DNA of 26,398 nt from a virus. Every line of letters starts with the position of its first letter. Position 1 is the first letter of the stretch. The notes under the pieces are model-generated. The model saw only the letters and a list, made by a program, of their open reading frames with translations, had not been told where the DNA came from and did not search any database. The stretch spans positions 1 through 26,398 of the IMG/VR virus record IMGVR_UViG_3300023099_000017; one strand, 5' to 3'. Below, one piece after another: positions 130-26,398 of this stretch. Made by a program: the position numbers and the translations under genes.

Positions 130-1185
130 ATGAAACTCGATCCCCGATCCTTCTCGGCGGAAGTCGTCGCCAACAGCAAGATTCACCAAAAGTGGTGGAG
201 CGAGCTGTCGGTGAATCGCCGTCACTTCCACAACACCGAGGACTACTACGCCTCGTTGTCCAACGGCGCGGCCATCCTGCCGCGCGACGCCTGGCAAGAC
301 CTCGACGCCACGACGGTTCGCGTGATGCGCGCCGACGAGGGCGAGGCCTGGATGCGGTACCTGATGCCGCTGGCCAAGTCGGTCAACGTGGGCAAGCTGG
401 TCCACCTCTATCGGACGTCCAGCGACCTCGCGAACCCGGTCAACCGCTCCATGAGCGGCCAAGTCCCGCAGGCGCTCGACAAGGTCCAGTACACCTATGC
501 GGGCGCTCCCGTGCCGATCTTCACCCACGGCTACGGTCGCGAGTGGCGCGAAATGGAAACCCTGCGCTCGGAGGGCTTCGACGCTCTGTCGGACGATCAG
601 GAAGCCAGCGCCGCGAAGATCAAGCGCGACATGGCCCTGTACTGCCTGGATGGTGACGCCACCATCTCGGTCAAGGGCTACAAGTCGTACGGCATTCGGA
701 CCCACCCGAACTCCAAGACGATCAACGTCGGCCCCTCGGGTGCCAACATCGACCTGACCTCGACCTCCACCACCGCCACCGCAATCGTCAACTTCTTCTC
801 CCAGACGGTCGGCGCGGCGATGGACTCCAACTACATCAACGAGAAGATCGTCGTTTTCGTCTCGCCGCAGATCTTCCGCAATCTGGACCGCCCCATCTCG
901 GACGGCGCCGGCTTGGTTCTCGGCACGATCCGCGAGCAAGTCCTGAAGGGCTCGCGCGTGGCGGCTATCGAGGAGACCTTCGAACTGACGGGGAACTCGT
1001 TCTTCGCCTTCGTTCCGAACCCCAAGTACATCCAGCCCATTGTCGGGATGGCTGTCGGAACCACGGCGATGCCGCGTCAATACCCCATGGCCAACTTCCA
1101 GTTCTTGCTGGCCGGCGCGATGGGTCTTCAGATCAAGGTCGATGCGAATAACCGGGGCGCCGTCTTCTACAGCATCTCGACCTAA
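130..1185 (+). CDS. Major capsid protein (HK97-fold, DUF6260-like)
   Basis: This 351-residue protein is probably the major head subunit that forms the icosahedral shell. Its length and general layout match the phage capsid family annotated as DUF6260/encapsulin-like: a short N-terminal arm, a long helix-rich middle (about residues 130-170), and a C-terminal half of alternating beta strands and glycine turns ending in FYSIST. The family call rests on remembered similarity, not a search. An AAGGGG Shine-Dalgarno sits about 8 nt before the ATG. A strong terminator follows directly at 1219-1249, as expected for a very highly expressed virion gene. The connector and neck genes downstream support a capsid role. 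No separate decoration or protease domain is visible. The long antisense ORF at 124-1080 is a codon-bias shadow. Confidence 0.85.
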   Translation: MKLDPRSFSAEVVANSKIHQKWWSELSVNRRHFHNTEDYYASLSNGAAILPRDAWQDLDATTVRVMRADEGEAWMRYLMPLAKSVNVGKLVHLYRTSSDLANPVNRSMSGQVPQALDKVQYTYAGAPVPIFTHGYGREWREMETLRSEGFDALSDDQEASAAKIKRDMALYCLDGDATISVKGYKSYGIRTHPNSKTINVGPSGANIDLTSTSTTATAIVNFFSQTVGAAMDSNYINEKIVVFVSPQIFRNLDRPISDGAGLVLGTIREQVLKGSRVAAIEETFELTGNSFFAFVPNPKYIQPIVGMAVGTTAMPRQYPMANFQFLLAGAMGLQIKVDANNRGAVFYSIST

Positions 1186-1218
1186 GCCACCTCGGCGGCA
1201 TCAGTAAGCGTTATGGCG

Positions 1219-1249
1219 AGGGCGGGGGTCACACCCCGCCCTTTTCTTT
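1219..1249 (+). terminator. Rho-independent terminator after the major capsid gene
   Basis: A perfect 8-bp stem, GGGCGGGG (1220-1227) with CCCCGCCC (1234-1241), closes a 6-nt loop and is followed by TTTTCTTT. The A-T pair 1219/1242 can extend it. This is a canonical intrinsic terminator for plus-strand transcription. It ends capsid transcription before the oppositely oriented gene at 1315-2193. Confidence 0.88.
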
Positions 1250-1314: not shown

Positions 1315-2193
1315 TCAGTCGTATTTTCCTGGCGGCATGACGGCCCACCGGTCGCAGTCGTCTAGCGAAACAGTCCCGATCTTGGAATAGTCTTGACGGT
1401 TGATCGGGTGGGCGCATTCGCCGAACTCGCGCTTGCCGACCGTCCGCCAATGCATGGGCGAACCGTCGTCATGCTGTGCTTCGTCGTAGGTCAGGCTGTC
1501 GCCCTTGTAGAGGAAGAAGAACTGATCGCCGATCTTCACGCCAAGCTCGGCGTTGTCGTTCGTGACCCACTGGACGTCTCGCGCGCGCAGCAGACGGGGC
1601 TTGGTGCGCTCTTGCGCCCTGGCCGCCTCCATCATGGTCTTGACGTCCTCAAGCGTGAACGTCTCCCCCTCGATCAGTGCAACGGTCCCAAGCGCATCGC
1701 CGATCAGTTGTTCGTTGCGGTCCATCACGCCCAGCTTGGAGAAGTCGAACTCCGAGGCGGGGATTTCGGTGGGAGCCATGGGGACTTCCTTCGGGACGAA
1801 GATGCGGTTGAACTTCTTCGGGTCGGTGTACTCGGCCGCCGCGATCTCCTCGGGTGTAGCGAGGCGGAAGCTGCGCGCCGCGTACATGCGGTCGTCTTCA
1901 AGCGCGAGAACGGCAATGTTGGTCAGGCCGGGCGACGTCCCCGGCGCAGTCCCCTTAACCAACCTGACCTTTGAGTCGGGGTCGTACAAGTTGACCACGA
2001 AATCGCCTTCCACAAACTCCCCTGTCTTGGCGTAGAGTTCGAAGCGGGACGACATCCAGCTTTCTCCGATGCCCTCGACGTGGATGTCATTAGCCAGCGC
2101 TGCCCCTCGGACAGTATAGACCTGACCGAGCGTCAGAGGGCTATCGCCAGGGTTCACGCACTTCACGCGGTCGCCTACTTCAAACTTGGGCAT
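1315..2193 (-). CDS. Hypothetical protein with N-terminal SH3/KOW-like module
   Basis: This 292-residue protein is encoded against the surrounding head genes. I start it at ATG 2193 (MPKFEVGDRV) because GGAGAA lies just upstream. The longer frame back to 2334 would run into the upstream gene. Residues 3-52 (GDRVKCVN, LGQVYTV, WMSSRFEL) resemble the small 'GDxVxCV...GxxYxV...RFE' beta-barrel modules common in phage accessory proteins. Residues about 60-113 look like a degenerate second copy (GDFVVN, SKVRLVKG, RSFRLA), and a third tryptophan-rich segment lies near the C-terminus. No catalytic motif is visible. It follows 2216-2494 with a 22-nt gap and is probably transcribed from the promoter at 2538-2566. 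The function is unknown. An early host-interaction protein is a guess from its regulation only. Confidence 0.78.
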   Translation of the reverse strand: MPKFEVGDRVKCVNPGDSPLTLGQVYTVRGAALANDIHVEGIGESWMSSRFELYAKTGEFVEGDFVVNLYDPDSKVRLVKGTAPGTSPGLTNIAVLALEDDRMYAARSFRLATPEEIAAAEYTDPKKFNRIFVPKEVPMAPTEIPASEFDFSKLGVMDRNEQLIGDALGTVALIEGETFTLEDVKTMMEAARAQERTKPRLLRARDVQWVTNDNAELGVKIGDQFFFLYKGDSLTYDEAQHDDGSPMHWRTVGKREFGECAHPINRQDYSKIGTVSLDDCDRWAVMPPGKYD

Positions 2194-2215: not shown

Positions 2216-2494
2216 TTAGGCGACTTCGAACCAATTGAAGTGGTCGCAGAAGGCCACATCAACCCATGCCATTGCGGCTTCTGGGGTCTCATACAGGCGC
2301 GAAGAAATGCATGACCCCGGAAGGGAGCTTTCAATGAAGGTCCATGAAACCGCCCAGCGCCTCGACGACGTGGCGGCGTCTGGGTAGACGCCTACTATGC
2401 GATGAACGCAATCAGCCGAGTCCAGCATAATCCAATCGAGGCTGTCCCGATGCCACTCACAGCGACGGCGCTTGAGGTCTTCAATCGAAATCAT
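2216..2494 (-). CDS. Small hypothetical protein, first gene of the reversed cassette
   Basis: This 92-residue protein begins MISIEDLKRR. The start at 2494 is chosen because the frame's only earlier in-frame Met (2566) lies in the promoter -35 element, so it would not be on the transcript. AGAGAGA upstream could be the ribosome site. The protein is rich in Trp, Cys and acidic residues in its C-terminal half (ends HFNWFEVA). It has no membrane segment, signal peptide or recognisable domain. It is the promoter-proximal partner of the 292-residue protein. Nothing in the sequence fixes a function. Confidence 0.65.
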   Translation of the reverse strand: MISIEDLKRRRCEWHRDSLDWIMLDSADCVHRIVGVYPDAATSSRRWAVSWTFIESSLPGSCISSRLYETPEAAMAWVDVAFCDHFNWFEVA

Positions 2495-2537
2495 TGGGCT
2501 GTCTCTCTGGCTAAGCGGCGGCGACCGCGTTAGCGAG

Positions 2538-2566
2538 ACTGTAGCGATGTGAAGGCCGATCTGCAA
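2538..2566 (-). promoter_or_regulatory. Sigma70-type promoter for the reversed cassette
   Basis: Read on the minus strand, TTGCAG (2566-2561), a 17-nt spacer and TACAGT (2543-2538) give a well-spaced -35/-10 pair. The predicted start is near 2531, about 37 nt before the ATG at 2494. The stretch TACAGTCTCG is repeated exactly at the second minus-strand promoter (26134-26162), which makes this much more credible than a chance match. Confidence 0.72.
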
Positions 2567-2575
2567 CCCGCTTGT

Positions 2576-2603
2576 TTGTCGTTGTGCTGCGTTTAGGTAT
2601 TGT
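2576..2603 (+). promoter_or_regulatory. Possible divergent promoter restarting late transcription
   Basis: TTGTCG (2576-2581), a 16-nt spacer and TATTGT (2598-2603) lie upstream of the plus-strand gene at 2653. The capsid transcript ends at 1249, so head and neck genes from 2653 onward need a promoter or antitermination, and this is the best candidate in the 158-nt gap. The match to consensus is only moderate. A small hairpin, GCGGC/GCCGC (2614-2618 and 2624-2628), follows in the leader. Confidence 0.35.
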
Positions 2604-2652
2604 CCCCCGGTAAGCGGCCCTTCGCCGCGTCACCGCTACAAGGAATTTCACC

Positions 2653-3057
2653 ATGACGAAGCGCATCCGCGTGAAACTGAAGCTGCCGACCGAGACCGCC
2701 ACCGGAACCGGTGTGTACGGCAAGGACGGCGTTGAATATCCGGTCGGCACGGTTCTGACGCTGCGGGAAGGCCAGACGTTCGAAGAAAGCGGCCTGATCA
2801 ACAAGGCCGATCCCCTGGACGGCGACGTCACGGAGGCCCATGAGCCTGTGACCAACCCGGCCGCCGAGCCCGAAGCTCCTACCGCGACCACCGGCTACAC
2901 CGTCACCGAGTCCGAGTCGGCCGGCTGGTGGGTCATCACCGACAAGGACGGCGCCCAGGTCGGCCCGAAGCTGCGGAAGGCTGATGCTGATGCGTTCTCG
3001 GCCCTGAAGCCCGACGAGCAAGACGAGTACGCCGCCCAGCACGTCGAAGCGGTCTAG
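2653..3057 (+). CDS. Hypothetical head-region protein
   Basis: This 134-residue protein starts at ATG 2653 behind an AAGGAA site. It is acidic, with a beta-rich N-terminal part (about residues 1-55, including VGTVLTLREGQ), a Pro/Glu/Ala linker (about 67-78), and a small C-terminal domain carrying TESESAGWWVITDKDG. I do not recognise the family. Its position between the capsid and connector genes suggests a minor virion or head-stabilising role. It is separated by only 3 nt from the next gene, so the two are probably co-translated. Confidence 0.72.
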   Translation: MTKRIRVKLKLPTETATGTGVYGKDGVEYPVGTVLTLREGQTFEESGLINKADPLDGDVTEAHEPVTNPAAEPEAPTATTGYTVTESESAGWWVITDKDGAQVGPKLRKADADAFSALKPDEQDEYAAQHVEAV

Positions 3058-3979: not shown

Positions 3980-4040
3980 CTGGTTTGCCGCTAAGCCGTT
4001 CTAGCGCTAAATGGGGTTCACACCTCAAGGGATGGCGCAA

Positions 4041-4541
4041 ATGGGCTATGGCGACGACACTGAGTTCAATGCGTGGCTCTCAGCTCGGGGCTATTCGCTC
4101 CCAGCCTCGCCGCCGACCGCCGCTCAACTGCGACAGATCGGTTCCGACTACATCGACGGCACGTATGGGAACCGCTTCACGGGATACCCCACCGGGGGTT
4201 TTGCTCAAGAGCGCGCATGGCCGCGAACGAACGGCATCACGACCAACTGTCAGCCGATCCCGGCCGACGTCATTCCCTTGGCGGTCATCAACGCCTCGTA
4301 TGCGGCGGCCTATCAAGAGGCCGTGGCCCCCGGTTCTCTGAGTGTGACCACCGGCTCTGAAGGCGCCATCAAGCGCGAGAAGGTCGGCCAGCTAGAAGTC
4401 GAATACGCTGGGGCCTCGTCGTCGGCCTCCATCGTCACGACCTCGCCCATCCTGTCGTCGGTTGACGGGCTTCTCGCGCCCTACCTGCGGCCTGATCCGA
4501 ACACGTTTTCGCCGCTTCTGCTGCTGGCTATCGGAGAATGA
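4041..4541 (+). CDS. Head-tail connector / gp6-like adaptor (DnaT-like family)
   Basis: This 166-residue protein belongs by pattern to the phage family usually named 'DnaT-like ssDNA-binding protein', which sits in the HK97 gp6-like head-tail adaptor slot. The signature runs from GYGDDTEFNAWL to GSDYIDGTYG and ends in a helical C-terminus (residues about 80-110, then VDGLLAPYL). I choose ATG 4041 because AAGGG (4027-4031) is 9 nt upstream; ATG 4011 has no ribosome site and ATG 4032 abuts AAGGG. The protein probably forms the ring below the portal. Its stop overlaps the next start (ATGA, 4538-4541), so the connector proteins are translationally coupled. Confidence 0.75.
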   Translation: MGYGDDTEFNAWLSARGYSLPASPPTAAQLRQIGSDYIDGTYGNRFTGYPTGGFAQERAWPRTNGITTNCQPIPADVIPLAVINASYAAAYQEAVAPGSLSVTTGSEGAIKREKVGQLEVEYAGASSSASIVTTSPILSSVDGLLAPYLRPDPNTFSPLLLLAIGE

Positions 4542-10228: not shown

Positions 10229-10954
10229 ATGGATCAGATCACCCGTAACCTTCTTGTGGTGGAAGAGGGGCAATGGCGACTTTCCGGCGCGCTGGACAGC
10301 GGCGGCACGACCGAGGACGGCGAGAACCAATATCGGCGAGCTGATGGCGGTGGCCGGTGGGTCTATGAAAGCTCCATCATCCTGACCACGGATAGCGAGG
10401 TGCGGCTTTACGAGTCCCTCTTGCTGCGGTGGAGCCTTGGCTATGACATCGCGATTGTCTCGCGCATTGGTGGCCCGCTCATGCTGGGCTTTGTGACCAG
10501 TGGAGAGACGATCCTGGTCCCCTTCTCGGATGGCTCGACCTTCTCGGACGGAACACTTTTCGAGGGCTCGGAGGTCGGAACGGCCTTTTTGGTCGATGAT
10601 GCAGCCAGCGGCGCGACCTCCTACCGGGTCCAAATCGAAGGGGCGCCGAGAACCCTTCAGGGCGGCGAGCCCTTCACCATGACAGGCGACAAGTACCGCG
10701 ACCGCCTTTACGGCGTGGCCAGCGTGCTAAGCGAAGAGGCGGCCGGCGAAGCCACGATTTACACCATCCTAGCGGCTCCTCCGTTGCGCGAGCCTTATGC
10801 GGCGGGAACCGAGGTCGATTTTGATAACCCTCGGGTGGTCATGCGGCCGAACCTGACCGATCCAGGCGTTTGGCCCTCCTATAAGGACGTTTTCAGGAAC
10901 GCCCGTGTCCCGGTGTCTTGGACCGAAACCAAGAGGATCAGCGATGGCCTTTGA
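10229..10954 (+). CDS. Distal tail-like / minor tail protein
   Basis: This 241-residue protein begins immediately after the tape measure stop, in the slot for distal tail (Dit) or first baseplate protein. It is beta-rich, with repeated Gly-Ser-Thr turns such as FSDGSTFSDGTLF, and no membrane or catalytic motif. The C-terminal part has NPRVVMRPNLTDPGVWPSYKDVF. I do not recognise a specific Pfam family. The role at the tail tip, bridging tube and hub, is inferred from gene order. It overlaps the next gene by 11 nt. Confidence 0.68.
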   Translation: MDQITRNLLVVEEGQWRLSGALDSGGTTEDGENQYRRADGGGRWVYESSIILTTDSEVRLYESLLLRWSLGYDIAIVSRIGGPLMLGFVTSGETILVPFSDGSTFSDGTLFEGSEVGTAFLVDDAASGATSYRVQIEGAPRTLQGGEPFTMTGDKYRDRLYGVASVLSEEAAGEATIYTILAAPPLREPYAAGTEVDFDNPRVVMRPNLTDPGVWPSYKDVFRNARVPVSWTETKRISDGL

Positions 10955-23281: not shown

Positions 23282-25012
23282 CTACCCTTCCGCCAAACGC
23301 TTGACGATCAGGGCGACCGTCTGCGTTAGGCTTTCTTGGCTGGCGGCGGGCATACGGCCAAAGGTCAGCGAGCCCTTGAGCTTCAGGAACGCCGAGTTGA
23401 CGGCCTTGGAGCCTTCCGCACCAGCGGCTTGCGTGTCGGCCCAGAGCCGGAAGAACGATGGCGAGTCGGTGTGAGAAGGCGGCGACTTCAGGCCCACGGC
23501 GACGGCGTACATGGCGCGCCGGAAAGCGGCCTTGTCGTCGTAATCCAGCTTTTTGAAGTCGTCGCCGTTGTAGATGCCGGGCAGCTTTTGCTGGATGGTC
23601 CCGAACTCCGTAGCCGTGCGCAGATCGGCCAGGATGGCGGATTGCCACTCGGGGAGGTCTTCTTCGACCTCTTCGGCCAGCGGCTCGGGGTGAGCTTCGT
23701 ACTCGGGAAGCTTGGCGAACTCGTCAAAGTTCACCCGCTGGAAGGGCTCGCCGTCGATATAGGATTGGGCGCAGTCGTCGGAGCCGATCTCCTCGCCGGC
23801 CAGGGTGTATTCGGCGCCGCGAGGGGCGGGGCCGGGGCATTGCTCCAGGGGATGCCATTCGCCGTCTTCATCATCGGCGAGGCCTGCCATTGCCTCGGCG
23901 ACCGTTGCCGTTGCAGGGATGGGCTTGTCGCCGGGAAACTCGTCGTCGGCGGTCTCGACTTCAGCATCGTCTGCGCGGTCCACGACGTCGCCCGGTTTCG
24001 TCGGGTGCATCGTGTAGCGCGCCAGTTGCGCCGCGCCCTTCTCGCCAGCGTTCGAATGCTTCTCGCCGTCCTTGTAGGTTGGCACGCGGCCCGCGTCGCT
24101 CACGGGATCGCCCGCAAGCATGTAGATCACGCCAGCCGGGGCTGGGCCGTTGATCTCGTCGCGAGCCTTAGGCGGGGAGACTTTTGCGGGTTCGATTTCC
24201 GCCTCGATGACCACGCCGTCTTCATCATGGCCGCTTGCGCCGTTGATGGTGGCCTCGATGCCTGCCCGGTCGAAGCCTTCACCGCCTTCCTGATTGCCCG
24301 CCAGCTTGGCGCCAAGATCCAGCTTTCGGCTCTTGGGAGCGGACTCGATAGCGTCGTCGCTCTCCCAGCGGTCTTCAGGGGTGTACGTGCCCAGGATGAC
24401 GCCCGAACGATAGAACCTAGCCCATTCGCGAACGCCCCGATTGCGGAGCATCCGTCGCCAGCTTGCGGGGCTGGACCATGGAGAACCTGACTTGGTGGTC
24501 TCCCAGCCGCCCACGTAGCCCTCAACAGCCTTGGGGCGCCCCTTGCTGTCGCAGATCGTCACGCCGTTTTCATCGACGGCGGTAACACGGATCGCGAGGA
24601 GCTTTCCTTCGCCGGGCGGACCTTCGACGAAGCCGTTAATCTTTCCGTCCCAAGCCCCGTACTCGCCTTCGAACTCGTATCCCAGCGTGCCCTGGATAGC
24701 AGCGTCAACCACCTTGCCTTCGAACATGATGCGGCCATGCACGAAGCTGCATCCCTGGCCGACCATGACGGGGTCCATATTCATGCGGTCAGCCCATCCC
24801 GCGATCAGGAACGCACGGGCTTGGATGGTGTCGAAGTCCATGCCGCTGGTGATCGTGTCGGGCAGGATTTGGGCCTTGGCCATCACAGTGGCCACCCGGC
24901 CCAGATGTTCAAAGCGCGCCGTGTCCATGATGGCTACGGGGGATTGAACGACGAGGCGGTGCGGCCTGGCCACGACGACGTTTTGCGATGGCGTGTTAGT
25001 TTCTTCGGACAT
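23282..25012 (-). CDS. RecT-like single-strand annealing protein with long C-terminal extension
   Basis: This 576-residue protein starts behind GAGGAT 10 nt after the exonuclease stop. Residues about 30-220 match the pattern of RecT-like annealing proteins of alphaproteobacterial phages: FEHLGRVATVMAKAQILPDTI, TIQARAFLIAGWADRMNMDPVMVGQ, a FVHGRIMFEGKVV segment and SPWSSPASWRRMLRNRGVREWARF (177-200) before TPEDRWESDD. It would load on single-stranded DNA and pair it with a complementary strand. RecT is usually 250-370 residues. The extra 225-576 is acidic and contains two related 49-residue segments (289-337 and 394-442) plus a helical end (455-576). Pairing with an adjacent exonuclease supports the RecE/RecT-type reading. 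The extension has no assigned function. Confidence 0.78.
   Translation of the reverse strand: MSEETNTPSQNVVVARPHRLVVQSPVAIMDTARFEHLGRVATVMAKAQILPDTITSGMDFDTIQARAFLIAGWADRMNMDPVMVGQGCSFVHGRIMFEGKVVDAAIQGTLGYEFEGEYGAWDGKINGFVEGPPGEGKLLAIRVTAVDENGVTICDSKGRPKAVEGYVGGWETTKSGSPWSSPASWRRMLRNRGVREWARFYRSGVILGTYTPEDRWESDDAIESAPKSRKLDLGAKLAGNQEGGEGFDRAGIEATINGASGHDEDGVVIEAEIEPAKVSPPKARDEINGPAPAGVIYMLAGDPVSDAGRVPTYKDGEKHSNAGEKGAAQLARYTMHPTKPGDVVDRADDAEVETADDEFPGDKPIPATATVAEAMAGLADDEDGEWHPLEQCPGPAPRGAEYTLAGEEIGSDDCAQSYIDGEPFQRVNFDEFAKLPEYEAHPEPLAEEVEEDLPEWQSAILADLRTATEFGTIQQKLPGIYNGDDFKKLDYDDKAAFRRAMYAVAVGLKSPPSHTDSPSFFRLWADTQAAGAEGSKAVNSAFLKLKGSLTFGRMPAASQESLTQTVALIVKRLAEG
23687..24148 (-). repeat. Two gapless 49-residue repeats in the RecT-like protein
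   Basis: Copy 1 (residues 289-337, DNA 24002-24148) and copy 2 (394-442, DNA 23687-23833) both start GPAPxG and end HP with identical length. I count 18 of 49 identical positions, including YxLAG, YxDGE and AxLxxYxxHP. The copies are old (low identity) and separated by an acidic Pro/Asp linker. This is divergence from an internal duplication, not a recent copy. Confidence 0.72.
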
Positions 25013-25022
25013 GTGATCCTCG

Positions 25023-26066
25023 TTAGAAGGCTTCGGAAAGGGTAGGGGTTACGGCCAGTTCCAGCGGCGCCACCTCGGGCAGTTCGCCAGCTTCGACCAT
25101 GCGGGTGACGTTATCGGCCGCCCATTTGGTGAGGCCTCCGGGGACTTCATCGTCATCATAGGTCGCCCAATGCCCCGTATGGTAGGCGTGGGCGAACTTC
25201 GACAAGGCGACGCGGAACATCATATGTCCCGCCATCATGTCGAATGTCCCGAGCGGCTTGTGATTGATGCAGTGCGGCCGGCTGCTTTCGATGAACAGCA
25301 AAACGAAGTCCTCAAACGTCGTCTTGGTGACGGCCCGCAAAGCCTCGTCGATCATGGCCATCTGAATATGATAGCCGTGGTCAGTGATCGCCTTTCGCGC
25401 GCCTTGAGCGGAGGCGTCGGCGCAAGACTTGGGGTCGATCACCATCAACGAGTCGAGCGAGATTACGTCAGGCCGAACCTTGACCCACACGTCCATGAAT
25501 TGGCCTTCGAAGCCGGGCTGGACCGGCCATCCGCCCAGAGGCACGCGGACCTTGAAGAAAATGGAATGCTCCATCAGCCCCCGAAGAATGCCCTTCTTGA
25601 CGTTGGGGTGAGCAACGAGCTGATCCCCGCACCGCTTCAAGGCCTGCATGTCGTCGGGGGTTAGGGGCGTCATCTTGTCGGCAATGACGCCCTTCTTCCA
25701 TTCCTGCGCCGCCTTGGTCTTGTAGTCGTTGAACTCGACAGGCCGGATTGCGAACAGCTTGGAAAACTCAGCTTCGCCCGCGATCAAGTGATGCAGGGCT
25801 TTGCCGAAATTGAAGTGGGTCTTGGAGACGTGCGGCGCCCGATCAGGATTGAGATAGAAGCTATCCCAGGCCTTCAGCAAACAGCCCTTCGGGTTCACGA
25901 TCTTGCGGAGAAAGCTCGACGACACTTCGATGCCGTCGCAGATGCCGCCGTGATAGGAAAGGCCCTCGCCCTCCATCGGAATGCCCGAATAGATGCCGGG
26001 TTCAGTAATCCTTTCCCCATCCCAGGGGCGGACGAGGGCGCGCACATCAAGCGGCGTGGTGGTCAT
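25023..26066 (-). CDS. PD-(D/E)XK exonuclease (RecE/lambda Exo-type, DUF3799-like)
   Basis: This 347-residue protein starts at ATG 26066 after AAGGAC, about 60 nt downstream of the predicted transcription start. The nuclease core shows GKALHHLIAG (88-97), a Glu at 166 (GLMEHSIFF), RPDVISLDSLMVIDPKS (198-214, giving D211-x-K213 as catalytic DxK), and HIQMAMIDEAL (233-243, the QxxxY-type helix). These fit the lambda-exonuclease/RecE-like branch of PD-(D/E)XK enzymes that resect double-stranded ends to leave single strands for the annealing protein encoded next. I cannot tell polarity or multimer state from sequence. The length is normal for phage members of the family. Confidence 0.85.
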   Translation of the reverse strand: MTTTPLDVRALVRPWDGERITEPGIYSGIPMEGEGLSYHGGICDGIEVSSSFLRKIVNPKGCLLKAWDSFYLNPDRAPHVSKTHFNFGKALHHLIAGEAEFSKLFAIRPVEFNDYKTKAAQEWKKGVIADKMTPLTPDDMQALKRCGDQLVAHPNVKKGILRGLMEHSIFFKVRVPLGGWPVQPGFEGQFMDVWVKVRPDVISLDSLMVIDPKSCADASAQGARKAITDHGYHIQMAMIDEALRAVTKTTFEDFVLLFIESSRPHCINHKPLGTFDMMAGHMMFRVALSKFAHAYHTGHWATYDDDEVPGGLTKWAADNVTRMVEAGELPEVAPLELAVTPTLSEAF

Positions 26067-26133
26067 GTTTTTGTCCTTGGCTGTGTTCGCTGGCGAGGGC
26101 GAAGCGGAGACCGTGAGGCCTCCGCATAACGAG

Positions 26134-26162
26134 ACTGTAGACCTGTGGTGTAGGGTCTACAA
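26134..26162 (-). promoter_or_regulatory. Promoter for the exonuclease/RecT-like operon
   Basis: On the minus strand TTGTAG (26162-26157), a 17-nt spacer and TACAGT (26139-26134) form a well-spaced promoter, with a start near 26127. The -10 and its downstream sequence (TACAGTCTCG) are identical to those at 2538-2566. The -35 overlaps the stop codon of the KGG-protein gene. Confidence 0.75.
26137..26160 (-). promoter_or_regulatory. Inverted repeat between -35 and -10 (candidate operator)
   Basis: GTAGACC (26137-26143) and GGTCTAC (26154-26160) form a perfect 7-bp inverted repeat with centres 17 bp apart, lying within the promoter spacer and both elements. That geometry fits repressor binding that blocks polymerase. 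The copy of this promoter at 2538-2566 lacks the repeat, so the operator may act only here. Confidence 0.5.
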
Positions 26163-26357
26163 GCCGTCTTTCTTCGGGATGCGCGAGGTAGCGCCGCCCT
26201 TGGCGCCGGCCGAAGCCGCAAGGTCGGGGTTCTTGAAGAACGACCGCTTTTCCTTGGGTACGCCAGCGCCACCCCTGCGGGCCATCTCGCGTTGGCGCTC
26301 GGGATCTTTGGCAGCGATGGCGGCGAACCCGCGTAGGGCCTTGGGTTTATCGGTCAT
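26157..26357 (-). CDS. KGG-motif stress-induced-like small protein
   Basis: This 66-residue protein starts at ATG 26357 after GAGGAA. It carries GFAAIAAKDPERQREMARRGGAGVP (10-34) and SAGAKGGATSR (49-59), the repeated Gly-Gly/KGG pattern of the general stress-protein family (PF10685-type, like YciG/GsiB). Residues 41-45 (FKNPD) separate the two motifs. Phages and plasmids often carry KGG proteins of unknown function. It precedes the recombination operon promoter, and its TAG stop overlaps the -35, so it may end a separate transcript. Its likely start overlaps an upstream frame by ATGA. Confidence 0.72.
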   Translation of the reverse strand: MTDKPKALRGFAAIAAKDPERQREMARRGGAGVPKEKRSFFKNPDLAASAGAKGGATSRIPKKDGL

Positions 26358-26398
26358 GTGTGTTCCTCGGTTGCTCGCGCACGGCACGCGGTGCTGGC
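26354..26398 (-). CDS. Possible 3' end of an upstream minus-strand gene
   Basis: A frame entering from the right edge reads 14 codons (ending TEEHT) and stops at TGA 26354-26356, which overlaps the KGG-protein start as ATGA. Such overlaps are typical of real gene pairs. The visible part is too short for any identity, and chance is possible. Confidence 0.35.
   Translation of the reverse strand, partial: ASTACRARATEEHT

Follow-up and report, generated by a model that had tools for sequence, protein, structure and literature searches.

The reversed two-gene cassette behind the capsid gene of this phage shares a 14-bp site, (C)TACAGTNNYGYTW, with the recombination operon at the other end of the fragment. 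We consider it fairly likely that this site is recognized by a regulator that the phage group encodes itself, most likely a repressor of the early operons. The cassette is probably controlled together with the recombination operon, in one network of early genes, and not with the virion genes around it. This rests on the common control sequence, on the status of the cassette as an insertion, and on a domain of its larger protein that other phages encode in their early regions. Systems of this kind are already known. A small literature search found no published description of this particular site or its set.

The window, that is, the whole stretch of DNA analysed, is the complete IMG/VR record IMGVR_UViG_3300023099_000017 (26,398 bases), a tailed-phage fragment from an uncultivated virus. 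Its plus strand carries capsid, head and tail genes, and the minus strand of its right end carries the recombination operon, which encodes exonuclease VIII and a RecT-like protein (Table 1). The profile matches bore out the exonuclease and RecT calls of the original prediction. It had also placed the cassette between the capsid and connector genes: the reversed reading frames do lie behind the capsid gene, but a small plus-strand gene comes next and the connector is further on.

Table 1. Features of the window and sites in the close relative G001 (positions are those of the window unless marked G001)
Feature	Position	Strand	Remarks
Capsid gene	130-1185	+	DUF6260, phrog_771
Terminator-like hairpin with T tract	1218-1243	+	Lies behind the capsid gene and faces the reversed cassette
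Cassette gene 2	1315-2193	-	292 aa
Cassette gene 1	2216-2494	-	92 aa; matches no known family
Cassette leader	2495-2530	-	GCGGTCGCCGCC...AGCCAGAGAGA, before ATG 2494; resembles leader at G001:34144-34190
14-bp control site CTACAGTCTCGCTA	2531-2544	-	Before the reversed cassette; PWM 20.7; in relative G001:44829-44842
TTGCAG hexamer	2561-2566	-	Originally read as -35; present, not common to the relative's other sites
Possible divergent promoter TTGTCG-N16-TATTGT	2576-2603	+	Toward head genes beyond the cassette; by eye
Small gene beyond the cassette	2653-3057	+	
Connector, head-tail adaptor Ad1	4011-4541		
RecT-like annealing protein	23282-25012	-	Long C-terminal tail; phrog_561, E 6e-12
RecE-type exonuclease VIII	25023-26066	-	phrog_412, E 1e-46
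Recombination-operon leader	26067-26126	-	9-bp hairpin, ACACAGCCAAGGA before start codon; from sequence and fold
14-bp control site CTACAGTCTCGTTA	26127-26140	-	Before the exonuclease/RecT operon; PWM 20.3; in relative G001:19446-19459
TTGTAG hexamer	26157-26162	-	Originally read as -35; ends the KGG gene (codon TTG, stop TAG)
Small KGG-motif protein	26157-26360	-	Upstream of the exonuclease; PF10685
Site	G001:19459		Before exonuclease operon
Site	G001:21427		Before second minus-strand operon
Two sites	G001:22900, 26454		Before two plus-strand gene starts, replication region; inverted relative to gene
Site	G001:31251		Before internal minus-strand start
Tandem pair of sites, 32 bp apart	G001:34236, 34204		Before long minus-strand operon
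Site facing away	G001:34417		Beside winged-helix gene
Site	G001:44842		Head cassette

Conservation of the motif in a close relative

The original prediction reported TTGYAG-N17-TACAGT-CTCGYTA on the minus strand at 2538-2566 and 26134-26162, and this pattern does occur exactly twice in the window. Shuffled sequence is expected to hold zero matches, a figure that overstates the case because the pattern was taken from the data. In a gapless comparison, the two 36-nt stretches share 25 identities, a level that about 64 diagonals reach over all position pairs of the window. Within the intergenic DNA only (~1.3 kb), the motif pair was the most similar of all pairs. A pair as good was present in 6 of 200 shuffled intergenic sets (family-wise p ~0.03), and 1 of 2000 shuffles was as good for the motif pair alone. 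Within the window alone, the pair goes only modestly beyond chance. It is absent from the canonical sigma-70 matches listed for the window.

A scan of viral contigs with the shorter motif gave 12 stretches. The flanking sequence of the window was present in only two, both on IMGVR_UViG_3300023076_000001 (51,515 bases; hereafter G001), which carries both window sites. This record is probably near complete: on the window, both of its ends fall within one gene region, where they meet. Both sites were kept almost letter for letter in this close relative, despite the exchange of the genes behind them. The conserved blocks span ~140 nt at the head cassette, with two substitutions, and ~96 nt at the recombination operon, with one; all three substitutions fall in the 17-nt spacer between the hexamers and none within the 14-bp sites. 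The genes adjoining both blocks are swapped between the two phages, with the exchange exactly at the block edges. The counterpart of cassette gene 1 in G001 is an unrelated 83-aa reading frame, and the G001 exonuclease is diverged or replaced. Recent common ancestry could explain part of the block identity, because the two genomes show 94-98% identity in other parts.

Nine sites, mainly at early operon heads

G001 holds both window sites and seven more, and all nine fit the 14-bp CTACAGTNNYGYTW. On a scan with a position weight matrix, the nine scored 18.6-20.8 bits and the next best 11.7, with matrix and consensus built from these same nine sites; the background from related phage loci predicts 0.2 sites per 51.5 kb above 13. 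Exact CTACAGTNNYGYTW was found five times in G001 and not at all in 27 other records (~1.09 Mb), comprising 25 capsid-related phages and two phages sharing the cassette domain. The reversed pattern had no matches in G001, and shuffled sequence gave ~0 matches to CTACAGTNNYGYTW. In the searched pieces of G001 the core TACAGT occurs nine times, and TACAGTNNYGYTW is common to six. The nine-site set comes from one genome, the only close relative found with a full early region.

All eight sites in the early region of G001 are intergenic, compared with 17% of the DNA there by our own gene model (p ~1e-6), and intergenic placement played no part in deriving the consensus. The cassette site is intergenic as well. 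At most sites a start codon follows 34-60 nt downstream. The tie that the original prediction drew between the cassette and the exonuclease/RecT operon stands as a common control sequence, which in G001 also heads other early operons; its reading as a promoter pair is not supported.

Several sites are followed by a common leader, GGTCGCCGCC...CAGCCA...GAGA/AGGA. A search with the ribosome-binding part of this leader, leaving out the site, had the same operon heads among its matches. The sites at G001:22900 and 26454 are inverted, yet the leader still follows 37-41 nt on. Upstream, these two inverted sites (L031:6887-6900 and 10441-10454 in our locus numbering) have a further sequence in common, CTCTCGGCTA on the minus strand; its plus-strand reading is the ribosome-binding leader TAGCCGAGAGGA. 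In the viral-contig scan, the cassette leader was found only in G001. The recombination-operon leader (window 26070-26170, minus strand) has an unusually stable RNA fold with two tandem hairpins (z -4.2), and Rfam gave no match in the window. The dyad TTGTAGACC...GGTCTACAG was dropped as a candidate operator, being absent from the cassette copy.

Operator or promoter

The original prediction took the shared elements for the -35 and -10 hexamers of a promoter. Judged by the whole set of sites, an operator for a phage regulator is the better reading. If the two window copies were ordinary host sigma-70 promoters of one early class, with TTGYAG as -35, TACAGT as -10 and a conserved start region, the exact spacing of 17 at both places would be explained, and so would the confinement of all three substitutions to the spacer. 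TACAGT also fits a TAnnnT -10, GCTACAGT matches 6 of the 8 positions of the Caulobacter RpoD -10, GCTANAWC (PMC8144410), and seven of the nine sites are oriented with their gene. However, TTGYAG is present at 2 of the 9 sites; the other seven in G001 have no such hexamer at 17 nt (0-2 of 6 matches). At the recombination operon the hexamer is the end of the KGG reading frame, the core is inverted at two operons, and conservation runs 7 nt past the supposed -10. We therefore regard host promoters of this kind as an unlikely account of the set, while at the forward-pointing sites TACAGT may double as a -10. A search of 84,980 genomes of bacteria and archaea gave no match to the fuller motif, TTGYAG-N17-TACAGTCTCGYTA, and the motif is therefore no general host promoter. 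Nor was the motif found in the loci of the capsid relatives with the core at 0-1 mismatch.

The asymmetric, contiguous motif at operon heads that lack a conserved -35 would also suit a promoter for a single-subunit RNA polymerase or sigma factor encoded by the phage. This is very improbable given the inverted sites at two operons; moreover, G001 gave no Sigma70_r4 match in a search whose controls worked, and no RNA_pol match in one run without a positive control. Slightly less improbable, but still a poor candidate, is the idea that the conserved blocks are recombination linkers, kept identical by gene exchange at their borders and without a role in transcription. Exchange exactly at the edges of both blocks and the 94-98% identity elsewhere speak for it, but it does not account for nine intergenic sites in one genome that are similar, not identical, and mostly at a like distance from starts. 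Chance similarity of two unrelated intergenic stretches is the least credible account: the family-wise p of the window leaves some room for it, but the nine sites of G001 separate cleanly from background.

If the site is an operator, a dimeric regulator would bind over the start region of each operon. We infer a dimer because the core, ACA-N4-TGT, has approximate two-fold symmetry and the site is used in either orientation; the halves CTACA (upstream) and YGYTW (downstream) are only loosely symmetric. All operons bearing the site, the cassette included, would then be held or released together. The cassette would be a set of accessory genes inserted behind the capsid gene together with a control region and leader of early type, and the terminator after the capsid gene would insulate it from late head transcription.

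The reversed cassette

In most of ~60 capsid relatives, the next head gene, a small plus-strand gene, directly follows the capsid gene, and phiLM21 is arranged likewise; in this comparison L061 was not looked at separately and L078 was left unresolved. Minus-strand reading frames in L062, L063, L067 and L069 were rejected as reversed cassettes, as they overlap plus-strand head genes. On this comparison, most capsid relatives lack the cassette, which is an insertion. The G001 cassette is accompanied by an HNH gene, and in L066 and L076 the minus strand right behind the capsid gene likewise carries an HNH gene related to it. Given these HNH genes at one and the same junction in three phages, the position behind the capsid gene is a recurrent insertion point. 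Further HNH-type genes lie behind the capsid gene at L014:6232-6741 (minus strand) and L082:3424-4146 (plus strand, HNH-like by eye only), and the HNH-type genes at this junction are mostly on the minus strand.

Cassette protein 2 is 33% identical overall to its G001 counterpart, with the N-terminal part in common. Its C-terminal domain of ~85 aa is common to other phages: it stands alone in Stenotrophomonas phage CUB19 (91 aa), and it occurs in jumbo phages; in L003 and L004 it lies next to recombination genes, and in Bcep176 it sits in an early methylase/HNH/recombinase region. Its neighbours include Erf-, YqaJ- and NinB-like genes and a Sak4-like gene, named by reading their translations. 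The predicted structure of cassette protein 2 had a mean pLDDT of only 32. Among the roles that the original prediction offered for the cassette, neither host takeover nor exclusion gained support from any result of this analysis.

Behind its capsid gene G001 also has a plus-strand terminator-like hairpin, of different sequence. Window 2567-2652, the other half of the cassette intergenic block, is identical in G001, and the head operon may restart there after the terminator at 1218-1243. For the cassette itself no terminator was found on the minus strand, the hairpin with T tract behind the capsid gene being on the plus strand only. One could imagine the cassette as a timer, transcribed early and, for want of a minus-strand terminator, running antisense into the capsid gene; the capsid would then be blocked early on, until the regulator turned the early operons off. 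We give this role only a slim chance. The G+C content of the cassette is near the phage average (0.60 vs 0.62).

Candidate regulators and known systems

G001 encodes two candidate regulators beside the three-site cluster, a winged-helix protein (G001:34526-34822) and a small Cro-like HTH protein (G001:35690-35884). The winged-helix candidate has a weak MarR_2 match and a predicted H-H-H-E-E fold (pLDDT 66), with matches to winged-helix folds, none of them with a strong E-value. The Cro-like candidate has an HTH_3 match just below the cut-off. Closer relatives of the G001 early gene and of the candidate regulator were searched for and none was found. An integrase is usual for immunity repressors and is not required for a temporal repressor. 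A search of G001 gave no PF00589 match, and without a tyrosine integrase a repressor of the lysogeny type is not assured.

A common site at the heads of several early operons and its intergenic placement are what a repressor-operator regulon would present. Phage phiC31 has conserved inverted repeats at its early promoters. As there, one operator family heads several early operons, although the symmetry of the site is weaker here. Stoperators have a fixed orientation relative to transcription, and many lie in transcribed regions, whereas the G001 sites are of mixed orientation and mainly at operon heads. In mycobacteriophage L5 and its Cluster A relatives, an immunity repressor acts at operators and stoperators (PMC9283540, PMC6550527). 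The likeness is a short, partly asymmetric repeated site and, putatively in our case, one phage regulator over many transcription units. The differences are that G001 has nine sites, most at operon heads with a leader and in no fixed orientation to transcription, that no integrase was found in it, and that its repressor is a candidate drawn from sequence.

The cassette also resembles morons, accessory genes with transcription of their own, independent of the phage genes around them (PMC6469090): it lies between conserved head genes on the opposite strand, is absent in most relatives and has its own control region. It differs from them in carrying a control region of the same early type as the phage's own, in that no terminator was found on the minus strand, and in a G+C near that of the phage. 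HNH homing-endonuclease insertions are described at phage gene borders (PMC10448857), and the same capsid junction holds an HNH gene in G001 and at least two other phages, but the cassette of the window has none.

These results provide a concrete early-gene control site and a putative regulon map for an uncultivated phage. They suggest that a gene pair lying in the virion region can remain under early control even as exchange alters what lies behind the site, and that a timing class could be assigned to unknown proteins before any experiment.

Recombination genes and possible host

The capsid and RecT relatives of the phage are mostly in Alphaproteobacteria. Relatives of RecE and RecT (L103-L105) occur in two genomes of Caulobacteraceae, the family of Brevundimonas, with 52-55% identity for RecT, and hint at a host in that family. 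The two genomes hold no 14-bp sites, as expected if operator specificity changes between phages. Within the RecT-like protein (window 23282-25012, minus strand), the C-terminal 302 residues are 97% identical to G001, whereas the annealing domain differs, phrog_561 in the window and PF03837 in G001, which makes this a module swap within one gene.
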